Positions 3,570-8,948 of a stretch of DNA of 34,635 nt are shown one piece after another. The DNA lies in assembly GCA_002069605.1 (NCBI GenBank), contig MWBQ01000071.1, positions 1 through 34,635 on the forward strand. The letters run 5' to 3'. Position numbers and translations under genes: made by a program. This DNA comes from Candidatus Atribacteria bacterium ADurb.Bin276 (GTDB taxonomy: Bacteria > Atribacterota > Atribacteria > Atribacterales > Atribacteraceae). How positions within the stretch are numbered: position 1 is the stretch's first letter; every line of letters starts with the position of its first letter. The notes under the pieces are model-generated. The model was given only the letters and a program-made list of their open reading frames with translations, did no database searches and was not told where the DNA came from.

Positions 3570-3598
3570 TTGACATTTATGATGACCCTGGTTATAAT
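3570..3598 (+). promoter_or_regulatory. Consensus promoter of the T-box/homocysteine operon
   Basis: TTGACA (3570-3575) and TATAAT (3593-3598), both perfect, are separated by 17 bases. Transcription would start near 3605, at the beginning of the T-box leader. Confidence 0.9.
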
Positions 3599-3604
3599 TC
3601 GTAA

Positions 3605-3869
3605 AATATTAATCGGCTTAGAACGGGATGAGTAGTTGGGGAAGAAGGGATAGAGAACCGGGTAAGGTGGAAGCCGGTCCTTCAGAACTCGATGAACATG
3701 GCCCGGGAGCCGTTACGGTGAAAGTAGAGTAGCCGGAACCGTCTAATCGGCGTTATTCGATTGCCATCTGGTGATTGAGATGGGGAATGAGTTGGATAGT
3801 TTTTGACTATCAGAAATAAGGGTGGTACCGCGGATGAACCCCCGCCCCTTGGGCGGGGGTTTTTTATTT
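3605..3869 (+). promoter_or_regulatory. T-box leader, predicted methionine (ATG) specifier
   Basis: The canonical T-box sequence AGGGTGGTACCGCG is at 3819-3832, just before a terminator. Stem I can be folded by hand: CGGCT 3614-3618 with AGCCG 3708-3712, CGGG 3624-3627 with CCCG 3702-3705, then AGTT 3634-3637 with AACT 3686-3689 and GAAG 3641-3644 with CTTC 3680-3683. The internal specifier loop holds GAACATGG, placing codon ATG (3698-3700) followed by a purine next to the lower helix, the usual specifier position. The T-box bulge reads TGGT, which would pair with an ACCA tRNA end. Uncharged tRNA-Met should therefore allow read-through into the homocysteine genes. Confidence 0.95.
3839..3865 (+). 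terminator. T-box attenuator terminator
   Basis: CCCCCGCCC (3839-3847) pairs with GGGCGGGGG (3851-3859) around a CTT loop, followed by six T residues. The 5' arm lies just after the T-box sequence, as expected for mutually exclusive antiterminator and terminator folds. Confidence 0.93.
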
Positions 3870-3890
3870 TTAAAATAGGGGGCGCATATC

Positions 3891-5123
3891 ATGGGAGTTG
3901 CTTTGAGGTCTTATCAAGAAATTAATGAAAAGATCAAAAAAGGAAAAGTAGTGGTTGTCACTGCTGAAGAGGTTATTGAATTAGTTGATAAAAAAGGAAT
4001 TGAAAAAACTGCTCGAGAAGTTGATGTCGTAACCACAGGAACCTTTGGTGCAATGTGTTCTTCAGGTGCAATGATTAATACCGGTCATACCAAACCAAGG
4101 ATGAAAATCAGCGAAGCTTACTTAAATGGAGTGATGGCGTATGGTGGTTTGGCAGCTGTTGACCTTTATATCGGAGCAACACAGGTTGCTAAAGATGATC
4201 CGTTGAATAAAATCTACCCCGGAGAATTTAAGTATGGTGGAGGTCATGTCATTCAAGATTTAGTTGCCGGTAAAGATATATTGTTGGAAGCCTACGGTTA
4301 TGGAACCGACGAATACCCTCGTAAAAAATTAATAACCTGGATTAATATTAAAGATTTAAATCAAGCCTATCTCTTTAATCCCCGTAATGCATATCAAAAT
4401 TATAATGTTGCCGTGAATTGTTCTGACAAAATAATCTACACCTATCTTGGAGTACTTCTCCCCCATTTGGGGAACGCCGGCTTTTCGTCCGCTGGCCAGT
4501 TAAGTCCATTGTTGAATGATCCTCATTATCGAACTATTGGTGTCGGGACCAAGATATTTTTAGGTGGTGGCGTTGGTTATGTTGCTTGGCAGGGGACTCA
4601 GCATGACCCTGGAGTGGAAAGAAACGATAAGGGAATACCTAAAGGGGGTGCGGGCACTTTGGCAGTGATTGGAGATATGAAAGGTATGGATCCCAATTGG
4701 CTTTGGGGGTTAAGTGTCAGGGGTTATGGATGTTCTCTTGCGGTCGGTTTGGGAGTGCCTATTCCTGTACTTGATGAAGAAACTCTCCAGTATTGTGCAG
4801 TTCGAGATCAAGACATTGAAGCGCCGATTATTGATTATAGTAACGCTTATCCAAACGGGACTGGCGAGGTTTTGGGATATGTAAATTATGCAGAATTAAG
4901 AAGTGGTAAAATACATCACTCAGGAAAGGAAATACCAACCTCACCAATTTCCAGTTACTCTCGTGCTCGTGAAATCTGTTCAATTTTAAAAAAATGGATT
5001 CAAGATGGAGATTTCATTTTAACCCAACCAACACTTGCTCTTCCTAATACAGAATCAGATGTGCATTTTAGAAATCTTGCTGAAAGACCTTTTACTAATA
5101 ATGCTAATGGGATTAGGAGGTAA
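3891..5123 (+). CDS. Homocysteine biosynthesis protein (DUF39/COG1900)
   Basis: This is the catalytic candidate for homocysteine formation from aspartate semialdehyde and a reduced sulfur donor, as known for the methanogen protein MA1821. The 410 residues contain the family's conserved cysteine in GAMCSSGA (C56), a second cysteine at C177 (AVNCSDK), glycine-rich LGGGVGYVAWQGTQHDPG and GYGCSLAVGLGVPIP. No CBS pair follows, whereas some archaeal homologues have one at the C-terminus. ATG 3891 is preceded by AGGGGG at suitable spacing and stands just behind the T-box attenuator. The next gene starts after five bases and encodes the ferredoxin partner. The family is sure; the activity is inferred from homologues. 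Confidence 0.93.
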   Translation: MGVALRSYQEINEKIKKGKVVVVTAEEVIELVDKKGIEKTAREVDVVTTGTFGAMCSSGAMINTGHTKPRMKISEAYLNGVMAYGGLAAVDLYIGATQVAKDDPLNKIYPGEFKYGGGHVIQDLVAGKDILLEAYGYGTDEYPRKKLITWINIKDLNQAYLFNPRNAYQNYNVAVNCSDKIIYTYLGVLLPHLGNAGFSSAGQLSPLLNDPHYRTIGVGTKIFLGGGVGYVAWQGTQHDPGVERNDKGIPKGGAGTLAVIGDMKGMDPNWLWGLSVRGYGCSLAVGLGVPIPVLDEETLQYCAVRDQDIEAPIIDYSNAYPNGTGEVLGYVNYAELRSGKIHHSGKEIPTSPISSYSRAREICSILKKWIQDGDFILTQPTLALPNTESDVHFRNLAERPFTNNANGIRR

Positions 5124-5128
5124 ACCAA

Positions 5129-5539
5129 ATGGTATCGACTAAGAAGGTGGTTTTACATTTTCCCCGAGAAGCGGTCGAGAGACCAGTGGTGTGTGATCTG
5201 GCGCTTCGTTTTGGATTAACCTTTAATATTCTTCGCGCCTCTATTTCTCCACATCATGAAGGACTGATGGTTTTGGAAATCATCGGAGAGAATACTAAAA
5301 ATGAGGAAGGTCTCAAGTATCTTCAAGAAAAGGGAGTAGAAATACAACCTTTAAGCCAAGATATTAAGAAAGACGATCAACGTTGCATCGATTGTGGTTC
5401 TTGCTTAGGAGTTTGTCCAACTTCAGCTCTTTATATGGACAAGAAATCTTATCAGGTAATATTTGAAGAATCAAAATGTATTGCTTGTGAACTTTGTGTT
5501 TTGGCTTGTCCTACCCGTGCGATGGAAGCTTTATTTTAA
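5129..5539 (+). CDS. NIL domain / 2x[4Fe-4S] ferredoxin protein
   Basis: The N-terminal ~75 residues form a NIL domain, a fold otherwise found at the C-terminus of methionine ABC ATPases. The C-terminal half carries two 4Fe-4S motifs, CIDCGSCLGVCP and CIACELCVLACP. This architecture matches MA1822, the partner of MA1821 in methanogen homocysteine synthesis, thought to supply electrons. At 136 residues the length is normal. AGGAGG overlaps the end of the previous gene and precedes ATG 5129, so the two are tightly co-expressed and probably co-translated. The NIL domain may sense or hold a sulfur amino acid; that is inference. Confidence 0.93.
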   Translation: MVSTKKVVLHFPREAVERPVVCDLALRFGLTFNILRASISPHHEGLMVLEIIGENTKNEEGLKYLQEKGVEIQPLSQDIKKDDQRCIDCGSCLGVCPTSALYMDKKSYQVIFEESKCIACELCVLACPTRAMEALF

Positions 5540-5542
5540 AAT

Positions 5543-6271
5543 ATGGTCGAATATGTAGAACGGTTTTATCGAAAGACTGTTAAGCCCTCCGATTTAATAT
5601 CATTCGATGTAAAGATTAAAGAAAGCGATCTCATGATCTATGCCCATTCCGATTTAAGTCAGTTCTCTTATTCTCTTTTAGATAAAGAACGAAGGAGCTT
5701 AGAGGCTTATATTCGCTATAAACCACAGTTTCAGGAGTCTTTGGTTCCAATAGATGTCGATGATTTTGCTCCTCCCATCTGTAAGATTATGGCCGAATCG
5801 GTAAAAAAGGCAGGAGTTGGACCAATGGCTGCAGTAGCCGGAGCGGTAAATGATCGACTGGCAAATGAACTCTTATCCAAAACGACAGAATTAATAATTG
5901 AAAACGGTGGAGATTTATTCATCCGTTCTTTAAGGGAGCGAGTTATCGCTATTTATGTTGGAGAAAATTCTCCCTTTAAATCACATATCGGATTATTGAT
6001 TTCTCCGGGGAAGACTTACGGAGTGGCAACATCTTCGGGTAAAATTGGGCATTCTTTAAGCTTTGGGGAAGCAGATGCAGTTACTATAGTTGCTCACTCA
6101 TCATCAGTAGCTGATGCTTGGGCGACCAGTATTGGTAATTTGATACATTCAAAAAAAGATGTTGAAAAAGCATTGAAATACTGTGAAAATATTCAAGAAA
6201 TCATTGGAGTTGTTGTTGTTTTTCAGGATGTTTTAGGGGTTCGAGGCGATATACAGCTGGTGAATCCTTGA
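5543..6271 (+). CDS. UPF0280 / COG2122 ApbE-like protein
   Basis: This is the third member of the homocysteine cluster. It shows the UPF0280 pattern: GPMAAVAGAVNDRLANEL, IIENGGDLFIR, and a late VADAWATSIGN, residues reminiscent of ApbE flavin transferases but without proof of that activity. The methanogen counterpart, MA1715, has been linked with MA1821 and MA1822 in sulfide assimilation through persulfides. The 242-residue length is normal. The start ATG 5543 is three bases beyond the preceding stop and has only a distant GGAAG, so translation is likely coupled. The operon appears to end here, though no terminator hairpin is evident before the next gene. Confidence 0.9.
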   Translation: MVEYVERFYRKTVKPSDLISFDVKIKESDLMIYAHSDLSQFSYSLLDKERRSLEAYIRYKPQFQESLVPIDVDDFAPPICKIMAESVKKAGVGPMAAVAGAVNDRLANELLSKTTELIIENGGDLFIRSLRERVIAIYVGENSPFKSHIGLLISPGKTYGVATSSGKIGHSLSFGEADAVTIVAHSSSVADAWATSIGNLIHSKKDVEKALKYCENIQEIIGVVVVFQDVLGVRGDIQLVNP

Positions 6272-6412
6272 TGTTTTAAAAACCATGAAAAAATAATGGC
6301 TTATTGTTCTTGGAGGAATAATTTTAATTTTATCATTAAAGCATCCTCTTTATCGTCGTTTTTATTCTATCGGATCTCATTGTCTTTTTCCTCAATTTGT
6401 TTTTTGCTATTA

Positions 6413-6441
6413 TTAACAACAATGCCAAGAAACAATATGGT
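6413..6441 (+). promoter_or_regulatory. Possible promoter of the Lon-like protease gene
   Basis: TTAACA (6413-6418) and TATGGT (6436-6441) are 17 bases apart, upstream of a purine-rich ribosome site (AGAGGGGGG) before ATG 6495. The -10 matches consensus at only four of six positions. The rest of the 6272-6494 gap shows no convincing gene. Confidence 0.35.
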
Positions 6442-6494
6442 AAACTCATTTAAACAGAAAGGTTTTCAACTCTTAAAAGAAAGAGGGGGGTTCG

Positions 6495-8948
6495 ATGAAT
6501 ACTGATTTAGAACTAAAATCCGAACAACTCCGATGGTATTGTGAACCAGAAAGCCTTGGTTTTGAATATACCTCAGAATTATGTTCTTATAATGAATTTA
6601 TTGGGCAGGAGAGAGCTATCCGATCAATTGAATTTGGTCTGGATTTGGAGAGACCTGGATATAATTTATTTTTGACTGGTATTACAGGAACAGGAAGAGT
6701 CGGAGCCATCAAATATTGTATTGCGAAAAAGATCAAAGACCAGCAAGCCAAGAGAATCCTTCCCCAAATTTTTGATTGGTGTTATATTTTTAACTTTGGT
6801 AGTCCAGATCGACCTCGGGTGTTAAAAATTCCAGCCGGAGAAGGTAAAAAGCTATCAATACGTTTAGAAAATCTTTTAAAGAATATCAAAGAAATCCTTC
6901 CCAAGGCTTTTGCCGGAGAAGAATACAAAAATCAGAAACAAATTTTGATAGATGAGGAGCAAAGAAAGAATCGGCAAATCATTCAGGAATTAGAACGGAT
7001 GGCTCTCCAGGAAAATTTTGCTTTTCGTATGACTTCTATGGGGCCAATCTTGGTTCCATTGGTCGATGGGAAACCAATGACACAAGAGCAATATATTGCT
7101 TTATCTGAAACCGAAAAAGAAACCATAGAAGAAAGACGGCGAACGCTATTAAATGAAATTAACAATAATTTTGAGAAAATTCATGAGTTAGAAATAGAGC
7201 TTAAAAATAAAATTTCCGATCTTGATTATCGCATTGCTGATTTTGCCATAACCCCCCTTTTTAAGGAATGTATCCAACCCTATGAAGACCAACCGGAAAT
7301 CGTTCAGTTTATTGATTTTATAAAGAAATATACTCTTACTTATCTCCAGTATTTTCGAGATTCCCAAGAAGCAACCACGGCACCACAGCTTTTTCCCTTT
7401 CAAAGATTACAAGATCCTTTTTTGCCTTTTAAGATTAATATATTGGTTGATAATTCCGATCGGGATGAACCGCCAGTTATTTTTGAGTCCCACCCCAACT
7501 GGACTAACTTGTTTGGTCGAATTGAACGAAAGGCAATGATGGGAACTTATTATAGTGACCATACTATGCTGAAGCCCGGATCTCTCCATTTAGCAAACAG
7601 TGGATACATCATCATGTATTTCCGCGATTTGATTATGAATCCTGGTGTGTGGGAAGGCTTGAAAAGAGCGTTAAAAAACCATGAAATTAAAATCGAGGAT
7701 CCTTGGGAACAGTTTGGCCTGGTTGCACCGCAAGGATTAACTCCTGAACCTCACCCTTTTAATGCAAAAGTAATTCTGGTTGGAGATGATATGGTTTACC
7801 GATTACTTACCCTTTATGACGAAGATTTTAAAGATTTGTTTAAAGTGAAGGCTGATTTTGATTTTCAGTTAGATAAAAATAATGATGTCATTCATTCTTT
7901 TGCTTGTTATGTAAAAAAAATATGTGAGAACGAAAATCTTCTTCCTTTTGAAAATTCAGGAGTTGCCCGTCTTTTAGAACATGCTTCCCGAAGAGTTTCT
8001 CATCAAGATAAGCTAGTATCCCAGTTTGGTTATCTCAAAGATATAGTGGTTGAATCTGATCATTGGGCAAGACAAGATCATTCTGAAAAAGTAACTCGGA
8101 GTCATGTGGAACGAACCTTAAAGGAAAGAAAAAACCGCCACAATCAAATCGAGGATAAAATTCAAGAATTGATTGATCAGGGAATAGTTTTAATCGATAT
8201 TGAAAATGAAGTTATTGGTCAGATCAATGGACTGTCAGTTTATGAATTAGGTGATTATAGTTTTGGAAAGCCTTCAAGAATAACCGTAAAGACTTATTTA
8301 GGTCGGCAAGGTTTAATAAATATTGAACGTGAATCTCGGATGAGTGGGAAAATTTTCGATAAAGGAATATTAATTATAAGTGGGTATTTAGGTCATACAT
8401 TCGCTCAAGATAAGCCACTTTCGATATCAGCCAGTATCTGTTTTGAACAGTCCTATGAAGGAGTTGAAGGAGACAGTGCTTCGTTAGCAGAAACCTGTGC
8501 CATTCTTTCAAGTCTCGGTGAGATTCCAATTCGACAAAATATTGCTGTAACTGGATCTATTAATCAAAAAGGAGAAGTACAAGCCATTGGAGGAGTAAAC
8601 CAAAAAATTGAAGGGTTTTTCCAATTATGTAAAAATCGCGGATTGACTTCAAAGCAAGGAGTGATTATTCCTGCCAGTAATATTCAAAATCTGATGTTAG
8701 ATGATGAAATTATTCAAGCAGTTCGGGAAGGTCTTTTCCATGTTTTTGCAGTAAAAAATGTTGATGAAGCTATAGAAATTCTCACTGGAATGAAGGCGGG
8801 AAAACTTCTTGATGATGGAACCTATGAACCCGGAACAATTAAAGCTCAGGTTGATGAAAAAATAAGGATAGCCAATGAGAAATTGAAAAAAATTTCTGAG
8901 ATGAAAGAAAACGAGAAAAAAGATGTATCAAATGCAGCTGATCAATAA
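6495..8948 (+). CDS. Lon-like ATP-dependent protease (COG1067, AAA_32)
   Basis: This is a cytoplasmic AAA+ serine protease related to Lon but lacking the Lon N-domain. Residues about 30-75 hold the P-loop region, where the motif reads GITGTGRV (62-69): the usual lysine is arginine and the following Ser/Thr is valine. The middle is a helical insert. The C-terminal S16 protease domain has the catalytic serine in EGDSAS (Ser661) and the catalytic lysine in GGVNQKIEGF (Lys704), 43 residues apart as in E. coli Lon. The 817-residue length is normal for this family. It stands alone between the homocysteine operon and a convergent gene. Protease identity is solid; how well it hydrolyses ATP is open. 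Confidence 0.93.
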   Translation: MNTDLELKSEQLRWYCEPESLGFEYTSELCSYNEFIGQERAIRSIEFGLDLERPGYNLFLTGITGTGRVGAIKYCIAKKIKDQQAKRILPQIFDWCYIFNFGSPDRPRVLKIPAGEGKKLSIRLENLLKNIKEILPKAFAGEEYKNQKQILIDEEQRKNRQIIQELERMALQENFAFRMTSMGPILVPLVDGKPMTQEQYIALSETEKETIEERRRTLLNEINNNFEKIHELEIELKNKISDLDYRIADFAITPLFKECIQPYEDQPEIVQFIDFIKKYTLTYLQYFRDSQEATTAPQLFPFQRLQDPFLPFKINILVDNSDRDEPPVIFESHPNWTNLFGRIERKAMMGTYYSDHTMLKPGSLHLANSGYIIMYFRDLIMNPGVWEGLKRALKNHEIKIEDPWEQFGLVAPQGLTPEPHPFNAKVILVGDDMVYRLLTLYDEDFKDLFKVKADFDFQLDKNNDVIHSFACYVKKICENENLLPFENSGVARLLEHASRRVSHQDKLVSQFGYLKDIVVESDHWARQDHSEKVTRSHVERTLKERKNRHNQIEDKIQELIDQGIVLIDIENEVIGQINGLSVYELGDYSFGKPSRITVKTYLGRQGLINIERESRMSGKIFDKGILIISGYLGHTFAQDKPLSISASICFEQSYEGVEGDSASLAETCAILSSLGEIPIRQNIAVTGSINQKGEVQAIGGVNQKIEGFFQLCKNRGLTSKQGVIIPASNIQNLMLDDEIIQAVREGLFHVFAVKNVDEAIEILTGMKAGKLLDDGTYEPGTIKAQVDEKIRIANEKLKKISEMKENEKKDVSNAADQ

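Follow-up and report, generated by a model that had tools for sequence, protein, structure and literature searches.

A T-box leader with a methionine specifier ahead of a probable DUF39-type homocysteine operon in an Atribacterota bacterium

Introduction

Is homocysteine synthesis in Atribacterota under the control of a tRNA-sensing switch? The question is raised by a stretch of 34,635 nucleotides from Candidatus Atribacteria bacterium ADurb.Bin276 (assembly GCA_002069605.1, contig MWBQ01000071.1, positions 1 to 34,635), referred to here as the window. A preliminary description had placed a promoter and a T-box leader ahead of exactly three genes, of the DUF39/COG1900, NIL-ferredoxin and COG2122/UPF0280 families, and had read them as a methanogen-type homocysteine pathway under methionine control. 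From the analysis reported here, we consider it very probable that a methionine-specific, transcription-attenuating T-box controls the DUF39 homocysteine route in this bacterium.

Both parts of this pairing are already known. Desulfovibrio vulgaris requires the three families to make homocysteine, the role of COG2122 having been found through mutant fitness (PMC5764234, Price et al., 2018), and methionine T-boxes have been described (PMC2494555; PMC3771891). No report of a methionine T-box paired with the DUF39 pathway was found in the open-licence literature searched, with long result lists covered to their top 20 entries; the pairing of the known switch with the known pathway is seemingly unreported, and its novelty is provisional. 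Articles are cited throughout by PMC number for the content of their excerpts.

Results

The leader and its promoter

The elements preceding the first gene are all on the plus strand.

3570..3598, plus strand: sigma-70-like promoter TTGACA-17-TATAAT, agreeing at 12 of 12 consensus positions
3610..3852, plus strand: T-box leader (RF00230), 110.9 bits, expect value (E) 6.4e-24, model positions 1-219 (the whole model)
3698..3700, plus strand: specifier codon ATG (Met), followed by the purine G3701; ATGG is unchanged in 16 leaders
3820..3832, plus strand: T-box core GGGTGGTACCGCG, with UGGU at 3823-3826 as the predicted partner of the tRNA 3' end
3836..3862, plus strand: intrinsic terminator stem (12 pairs, 9 of them G-C; stem pairs covary), then a T run
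3877..3882, plus strand: likely ribosome-binding site AGGGGG, read from the sequence

The presence of a full T-box leader with its terminator ahead of the operon was confirmed, the match lying above the RF00230 gathering score of 93. When the 16 leaders were folded together with RNAalifold, 52 pairs were obtained, and for 32 of these at least one sequence was changed on both sides with pairing kept; the aligned leaders are related, so these counts are not independent events. The covarying pairs were spread over Stem I, the subsequent hairpins and the terminator. A promoter scan of 4.2 kb gave 16 sites matching at 9 or more of 12 positions, against a shuffle mean of 10.3, and the site at 3570-3598 was the sole one above 9. 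Both of its hexamers are retained in loci L002, L003 and L004.

The specifier codon

After GAA the window reads CATGG, in which both ATG (Met) and CAT (His) can be read by eye. In the T-box database TBDB the specifier is located by its distance from the end of Stem I (PMC7778990), and in the same manner the specifier was taken as the three bases ahead of one purine and the stem. A reading one base earlier, by which the leader would sense tRNA-His rather than tRNA-Met, is permitted by the window's own bases; in the alignment of the 16 leaders of the window's order, however, ATGG never varies, and directly ahead of it 13 leaders have C, one has T (GAA-T-ATGG) and two have no base (GAA-ATGG). The operon genes, moreover, serve homocysteine and not histidine, and the histidine reading is extremely unlikely. 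No tRNA-His was found among the 30 tRNA loci seen (38 matches were reported, and 150 of 203 candidates were scored). The methionine specificity put forward in the preliminary description thus holds across the leaders compared.

Three tRNAs with a CAT anticodon were found in the host genome, one of which could be a tRNA-Ile with a modified anticodon. Each ends in ACCA, and A73 fits the UGGU of the leader.

Four other T-boxes scored over the cut-off in the host, with specifiers TCC, TGG, CTC and TGG, and the genes behind them fit these codons. They include trpB and ilvD, both over their model cut-offs, a trpX-like transporter (287 bits against a cut-off of 390), and a class-V transaminase, below every model's cut-off, accompanied by an open reading frame resembling phosphoglycerate dehydrogenase by eye. 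A sixth host T-box (L087, 1501-1708) is weak, at 76.6 bits and below cut-off, with UGGC and an ambiguous specifier; its position is close to the end of a contig, 3' of a gene that looks dapA-like by eye.

The three genes

3891..5123, plus strand: HcyBio/DUF39/COG1900, probable L-aspartate semialdehyde sulfurtransferase (L-ASST), 410 amino acids; PF01837, 511.8 bits, E 1e-153
4056-4058, plus strand: Cys56 of the DUF39 protein; Cys in 110 of 110 aligned sequences, the window included
5129..5539, plus strand: NIL domain and two 4Fe-4S motifs, probable electron donor subunit, 136 amino acids; PF09383, 59.1 bits, and PF00037 in two stretches
5543..6271, plus strand: COG2122/UPF0280, probable sulfur-delivery factor, 242 amino acids; NF003323/PRK04334, E 8.4e-76, residues 3-240

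These are the families of DvMF_1464, DvMF_0262 and DvMF_0044 in D. vulgaris Miyazaki F and of MA1821, MA1822 and MA1715 in Methanosarcina acetivorans. Pfam describes PF01837 as 'Homocysteine biosynthesis enzyme, sulfur-incorporation'. The Methanosarcina L-ASST, MA1821, is dead as C54A and still active as C131A (PMC12068725). Cys56 was equated with Cys54 of MA1821 through the 77-residue spacing to the next conserved Cys in 12 sequences, not by direct alignment, and on this basis the essential Cys is kept in the window, as in the D. vulgaris and M. acetivorans pathway; unlike in those organisms, the window's three genes are adjacent and stand behind a methionine T-box. The NIL domain binds methionine (PMC12068725), which makes a second, protein-level control possible. 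The COG2122-type protein matched no Pfam family, and its solved homologue, 2o34 (E 5e-36), is titled merely 'Hypothetical protein'. The DUF39 protein had no match in the PDB.

Substrates vary among COG1900 proteins (PMC12068725), and the window's DUF39 protein also matches TIGR03287, the model for MMP16 / coenzyme M synthase, at 123.2 bits. It might therefore make another thiol, as MMP16 does for coenzyme M, with methionine control being indirect. That score, however, is far below the MMP16 cut-off of 363.95, and Cys is present at the L-ASST position; the methionine T-box and the NIL and COG2122 partners all suit homocysteine, and no alternative de novo homocysteine route was found in the host. 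Synthesis of another thiol is very improbable.

MA1821 is reported with a CBS domain (PMC12068725), whereas Pfam finds none in the window's DUF39 protein. The idea that the T-box replaces S-adenosylmethionine sensing by the CBS domain was dropped: families that lack the T-box likewise have short full-length DUF39 frames (386-412 amino acids), so the absence of the CBS domain is not tied to the T-box.

Other routes to homocysteine in the host

The host assembly is a 2.5 Mb draft, 98.1% complete and 1.2% contaminated. A cultured relative, Atribacter laminatus RT761, depends on yeast extract (PMC7736352). Neither MetX nor MetA had a match in the host genome. Across the 39 Atribacterota genomes of the phylum sample (completeness at least 80%), no MetX match was over the cut-off, although no control genome exceeded it either, so that only the tally by E-value is informative; the six weak partial matches (20-24 bits, about 50-65 model positions) are taken for other hydrolases. 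Searches for MetA and PF01053 covered the host genome alone.

The PF01053 family, which we take to include MetB, MetC, MetY and MetZ, had one strong match in the host. As a MetB, MetC or MetY enzyme this candidate was rejected: it scored 666.8 against the equivalog cut-off of 629 for an Ala/Glu racemase (NCBIfam) and fell short of the cut-off of every other model shown (24, from a list of 64). The bifunctional racemase is encoded on a short host contig (L088, 649-1851), and the name of its model, NF041088, points to archaea. A second PF01053 match over the cut-off was weak (35.1 bits), in an open reading frame resembling a sugar aminotransferase by eye, and two further matches were below cut-off.

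The host has matches to homoserine dehydrogenase and semialdehyde dehydrogenase, together with a homocysteine S-methyltransferase domain that stands alone. Homoserine dehydrogenase is required for threonine. Threonine alone rescues homoserine dehydrogenase mutants of Desulfovibrio (PMC5764234), which the host resembles in having kept this enzyme with no classical homocysteine route recognised. A full classical route in the genome, one half of the refuting condition set by the preliminary description, was looked for and not found, and this half did not refute the reading. Such a route could be hidden in a gap of the assembly, given its 231 contigs and 98.1% completeness, or be too diverged to recognise; with MetX absent from the host and from the phylum sample over cut-off, no MetA in the host and the single strong PF01053 match a racemase, this is very improbable.

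Distribution within Atribacterota

DUF39 was present in 32 of the 39 phylum genomes, with 35 matches. Loci were at first retrieved for 30 of these and later for four more; the fifth outstanding match, an incomplete gene at the edge of a contig, was outside the comparison. The order DUF39-NIL-COG2122, which the preliminary description had suggested seeking in related genomes, is kept in 29 of the 30 loci, the remaining locus ending inside NIL. The four later loci showed no T-box core.

The DUF39 gene occurs in 18 of 20 genomes of the window's order (the G017 contig starts inside the gene), and a T-box at the Rfam cut-off lies just upstream of the operon in 16 of the 17 assessable genomes. T-boxes in general are widespread in Atribacterota: at E up to 0.001 every one of the 39 genomes has a match, and 36 have one over the cut-off. 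Judged by their equal T-box scores, loci L002-L004 seem to belong to genomes G003, G001 and G002; they were left out of the count of 16 of 17 and are counted twice in the 110-sequence DUF39 alignment.

Two other Atribacterota families outside the window's order, f6 and f7, have further arrangements. The three genes in five f6 loci (L188-L192) follow a row of ilvB, ilvN, ilvC, prephenate dehydratase, leuA and a leuA-like gene. The same row was seen in the retrieved part of the sixth f6 locus, L193 (G022), where the three genes are followed by those for P5C reductase, a corrinoid protein, a pterin-binding protein and MTHFR. The f6 genes were named by Pfam for the two leuA-type genes and the L193 genes past COG2122, and by eye for the others. 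One f7 locus, L194 (G036), has corrinoid- and pterin-type genes upstream of DUF39 and, farther away on the opposite strand, an MTHFR-like gene (by eye). Such methyl-transfer neighbours of DUF39 also speak for a role in methionine.

Three f6 genomes carry a second DUF39-NIL pair (L203 1634-3316 in G030; L204 2689-4371 in G022; L205 1334-3015 in G028). These second DUF39 copies are 63-64% identical to that of the window, and the other copy of the same genomes is 52-54% identical. Neither a COG2122 match nor a T-box core was found in the retrieved stretches.

Loci in other phyla

DUF39 relatives occur in many anaerobic bacteria. The best 80 of 221 DUF39 loci were compared, 71 of the 80 having at least 400 bases upstream. 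Among them the nearest named relatives by DUF39 are three 'Candidatus Atribacteria' assemblies (92-97% identity), and the remaining loci are at most 66% identical, the nearest being Dehalococcoidales, Omnitrophica and others. With one mismatch allowed, a T-box core within 500 bases upstream of DUF39 was found in none of the 80 except L002-L004. Of the 80 loci, 16 were scanned with Rfam; the 13 of these that are not from Atribacteria had no T-box reaching the cut-off.

Where 2 kb or more of downstream sequence was available (60 loci), NIL was the next gene in 30, and NIL followed by COG2122 in 15; these counts were made by tblastn with the window's proteins, and distant homologues are missed. 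Dehalococcoides likewise has the DUF39 pathway in a gene row, DET0921:DET0919, according to Price et al. (PMC5764234). The pathway that the preliminary description called 'methanogen-type' accordingly extends beyond methanogens to anaerobic bacteria, including Desulfovibrio.

The 3' end of the transcription unit

The next gene, at 6495-8948, encodes a Lon-like protease, and a search of the stretch from 6271 to 6495 found no terminator-like site, so that read-through is possible. Of the claim of exactly three genes, the three open reading frames behind the promoter and leader stand, and the 3' limit is tentative. A longer transcription unit that also drives the Lon-like gene is suggested by this missing site and by the Lon-like gene that comes next in L004 as well and, by eye, in L201. 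The gap of 223 bases nevertheless holds weak promoter-like sites (for example 6413-6441), and other genes come next in L003 (a different open reading frame, transposase-like by eye) and in L200 (TPR-like by eye); on balance the longer unit is possible and rather doubtful.

Discussion

Control of the DUF39 route by a methionine T-box has to be weighed against several observations that count against it. G005 (L201), of the window's own family, has the operon, yet a search upstream of it at E up to 1 gave no T-box match. At 12 f6 and f7 loci, two of them with just 366 and 145 upstream bases, no T-box at the Rfam cut-off was found upstream (0 of 12); from these operons it follows that the pathway does not need a T-box. 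The genes of L188-L192 belong to an ilv-leu unit, and the T-box about 8 kb upstream of DUF39 there reads Leu (CTC) in all five. The fit of UGGU to the discriminator base is a weak test, since the two Trp T-boxes of the host likewise show UGGU although tRNA-Trp carries G73; with wobble allowed, this fit is only supporting. The COG2122 protein scored 254.6 bits against the NF003323/PRK04334 cut-off of 271, short by 16 bits. Unlike in MA1821, the second conserved Cys of L-ASST (Cys131) is replaced in the window by Glu141 (4311-4313). Lastly, the host assembly is of draft quality, with 231 contigs.

At the position of this second Cys, 99 of the 110 DUF39 sequences have Cys and 11 have Glu or Asp. 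Glu or Asp is found in every genome of the window's genus (five in all) as well as in L018, L032 and L081.

By analogy with T-box biology, the switch would work as follows. When tRNA-Met is charged, the terminator at 3836-3862 would end the leader transcript. Under methionine shortage, the CAU anticodon of uncharged tRNA-Met would pair with ATG at 3698-3700 and its free ACCA end with UGGU at 3823-3826; the antiterminator would then form and the operon would be transcribed. From what is known of its homologues, the DUF39 protein would transfer sulfur through Cys56 onto aspartate semialdehyde, with the NIL-ferredoxin probably supplying electrons and the COG2122 protein probably aiding sulfur delivery.

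Methionine genes of Firmicutes (the met genes of Staphylococcus aureus; Lactobacillus plantarum) likewise stand behind T-boxes with a Met specifier (PMC2494555; PMC3771891). Those T-boxes control other methionine genes, for example those for cystathionine gamma-synthase and methionine synthase (PMC2494555), whereas the leader in the window precedes the DUF39 route in Atribacterota. More tentatively, in one Atribacterota order the DUF39 route may be under direct control by the charging of tRNA-Met, and the leader might sense the initiator tRNA; the supply of homocysteine would then be tied to the initiation of translation, in addition to methionine being bound by the NIL domain.

A switch specific for one tRNA lets the sequence itself name the amino acid that a pathway serves. 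The T-box is therefore regulatory evidence, separate from mutant genetics, for a place of all three families in methionine synthesis. For UPF0280/COG2122, which the preliminary description had assigned to the pathway from the regulation, it corroborates earlier evidence and is not the first, mutant fitness in D. vulgaris having preceded it (PMC5764234). In addition, the leader could serve as a ready-made reporter for studying this route, including the questions of its sulfur donor and electron count. Finally, a missing metA, metX or metB is no ground for calling Atribacterota methionine auxotrophs.

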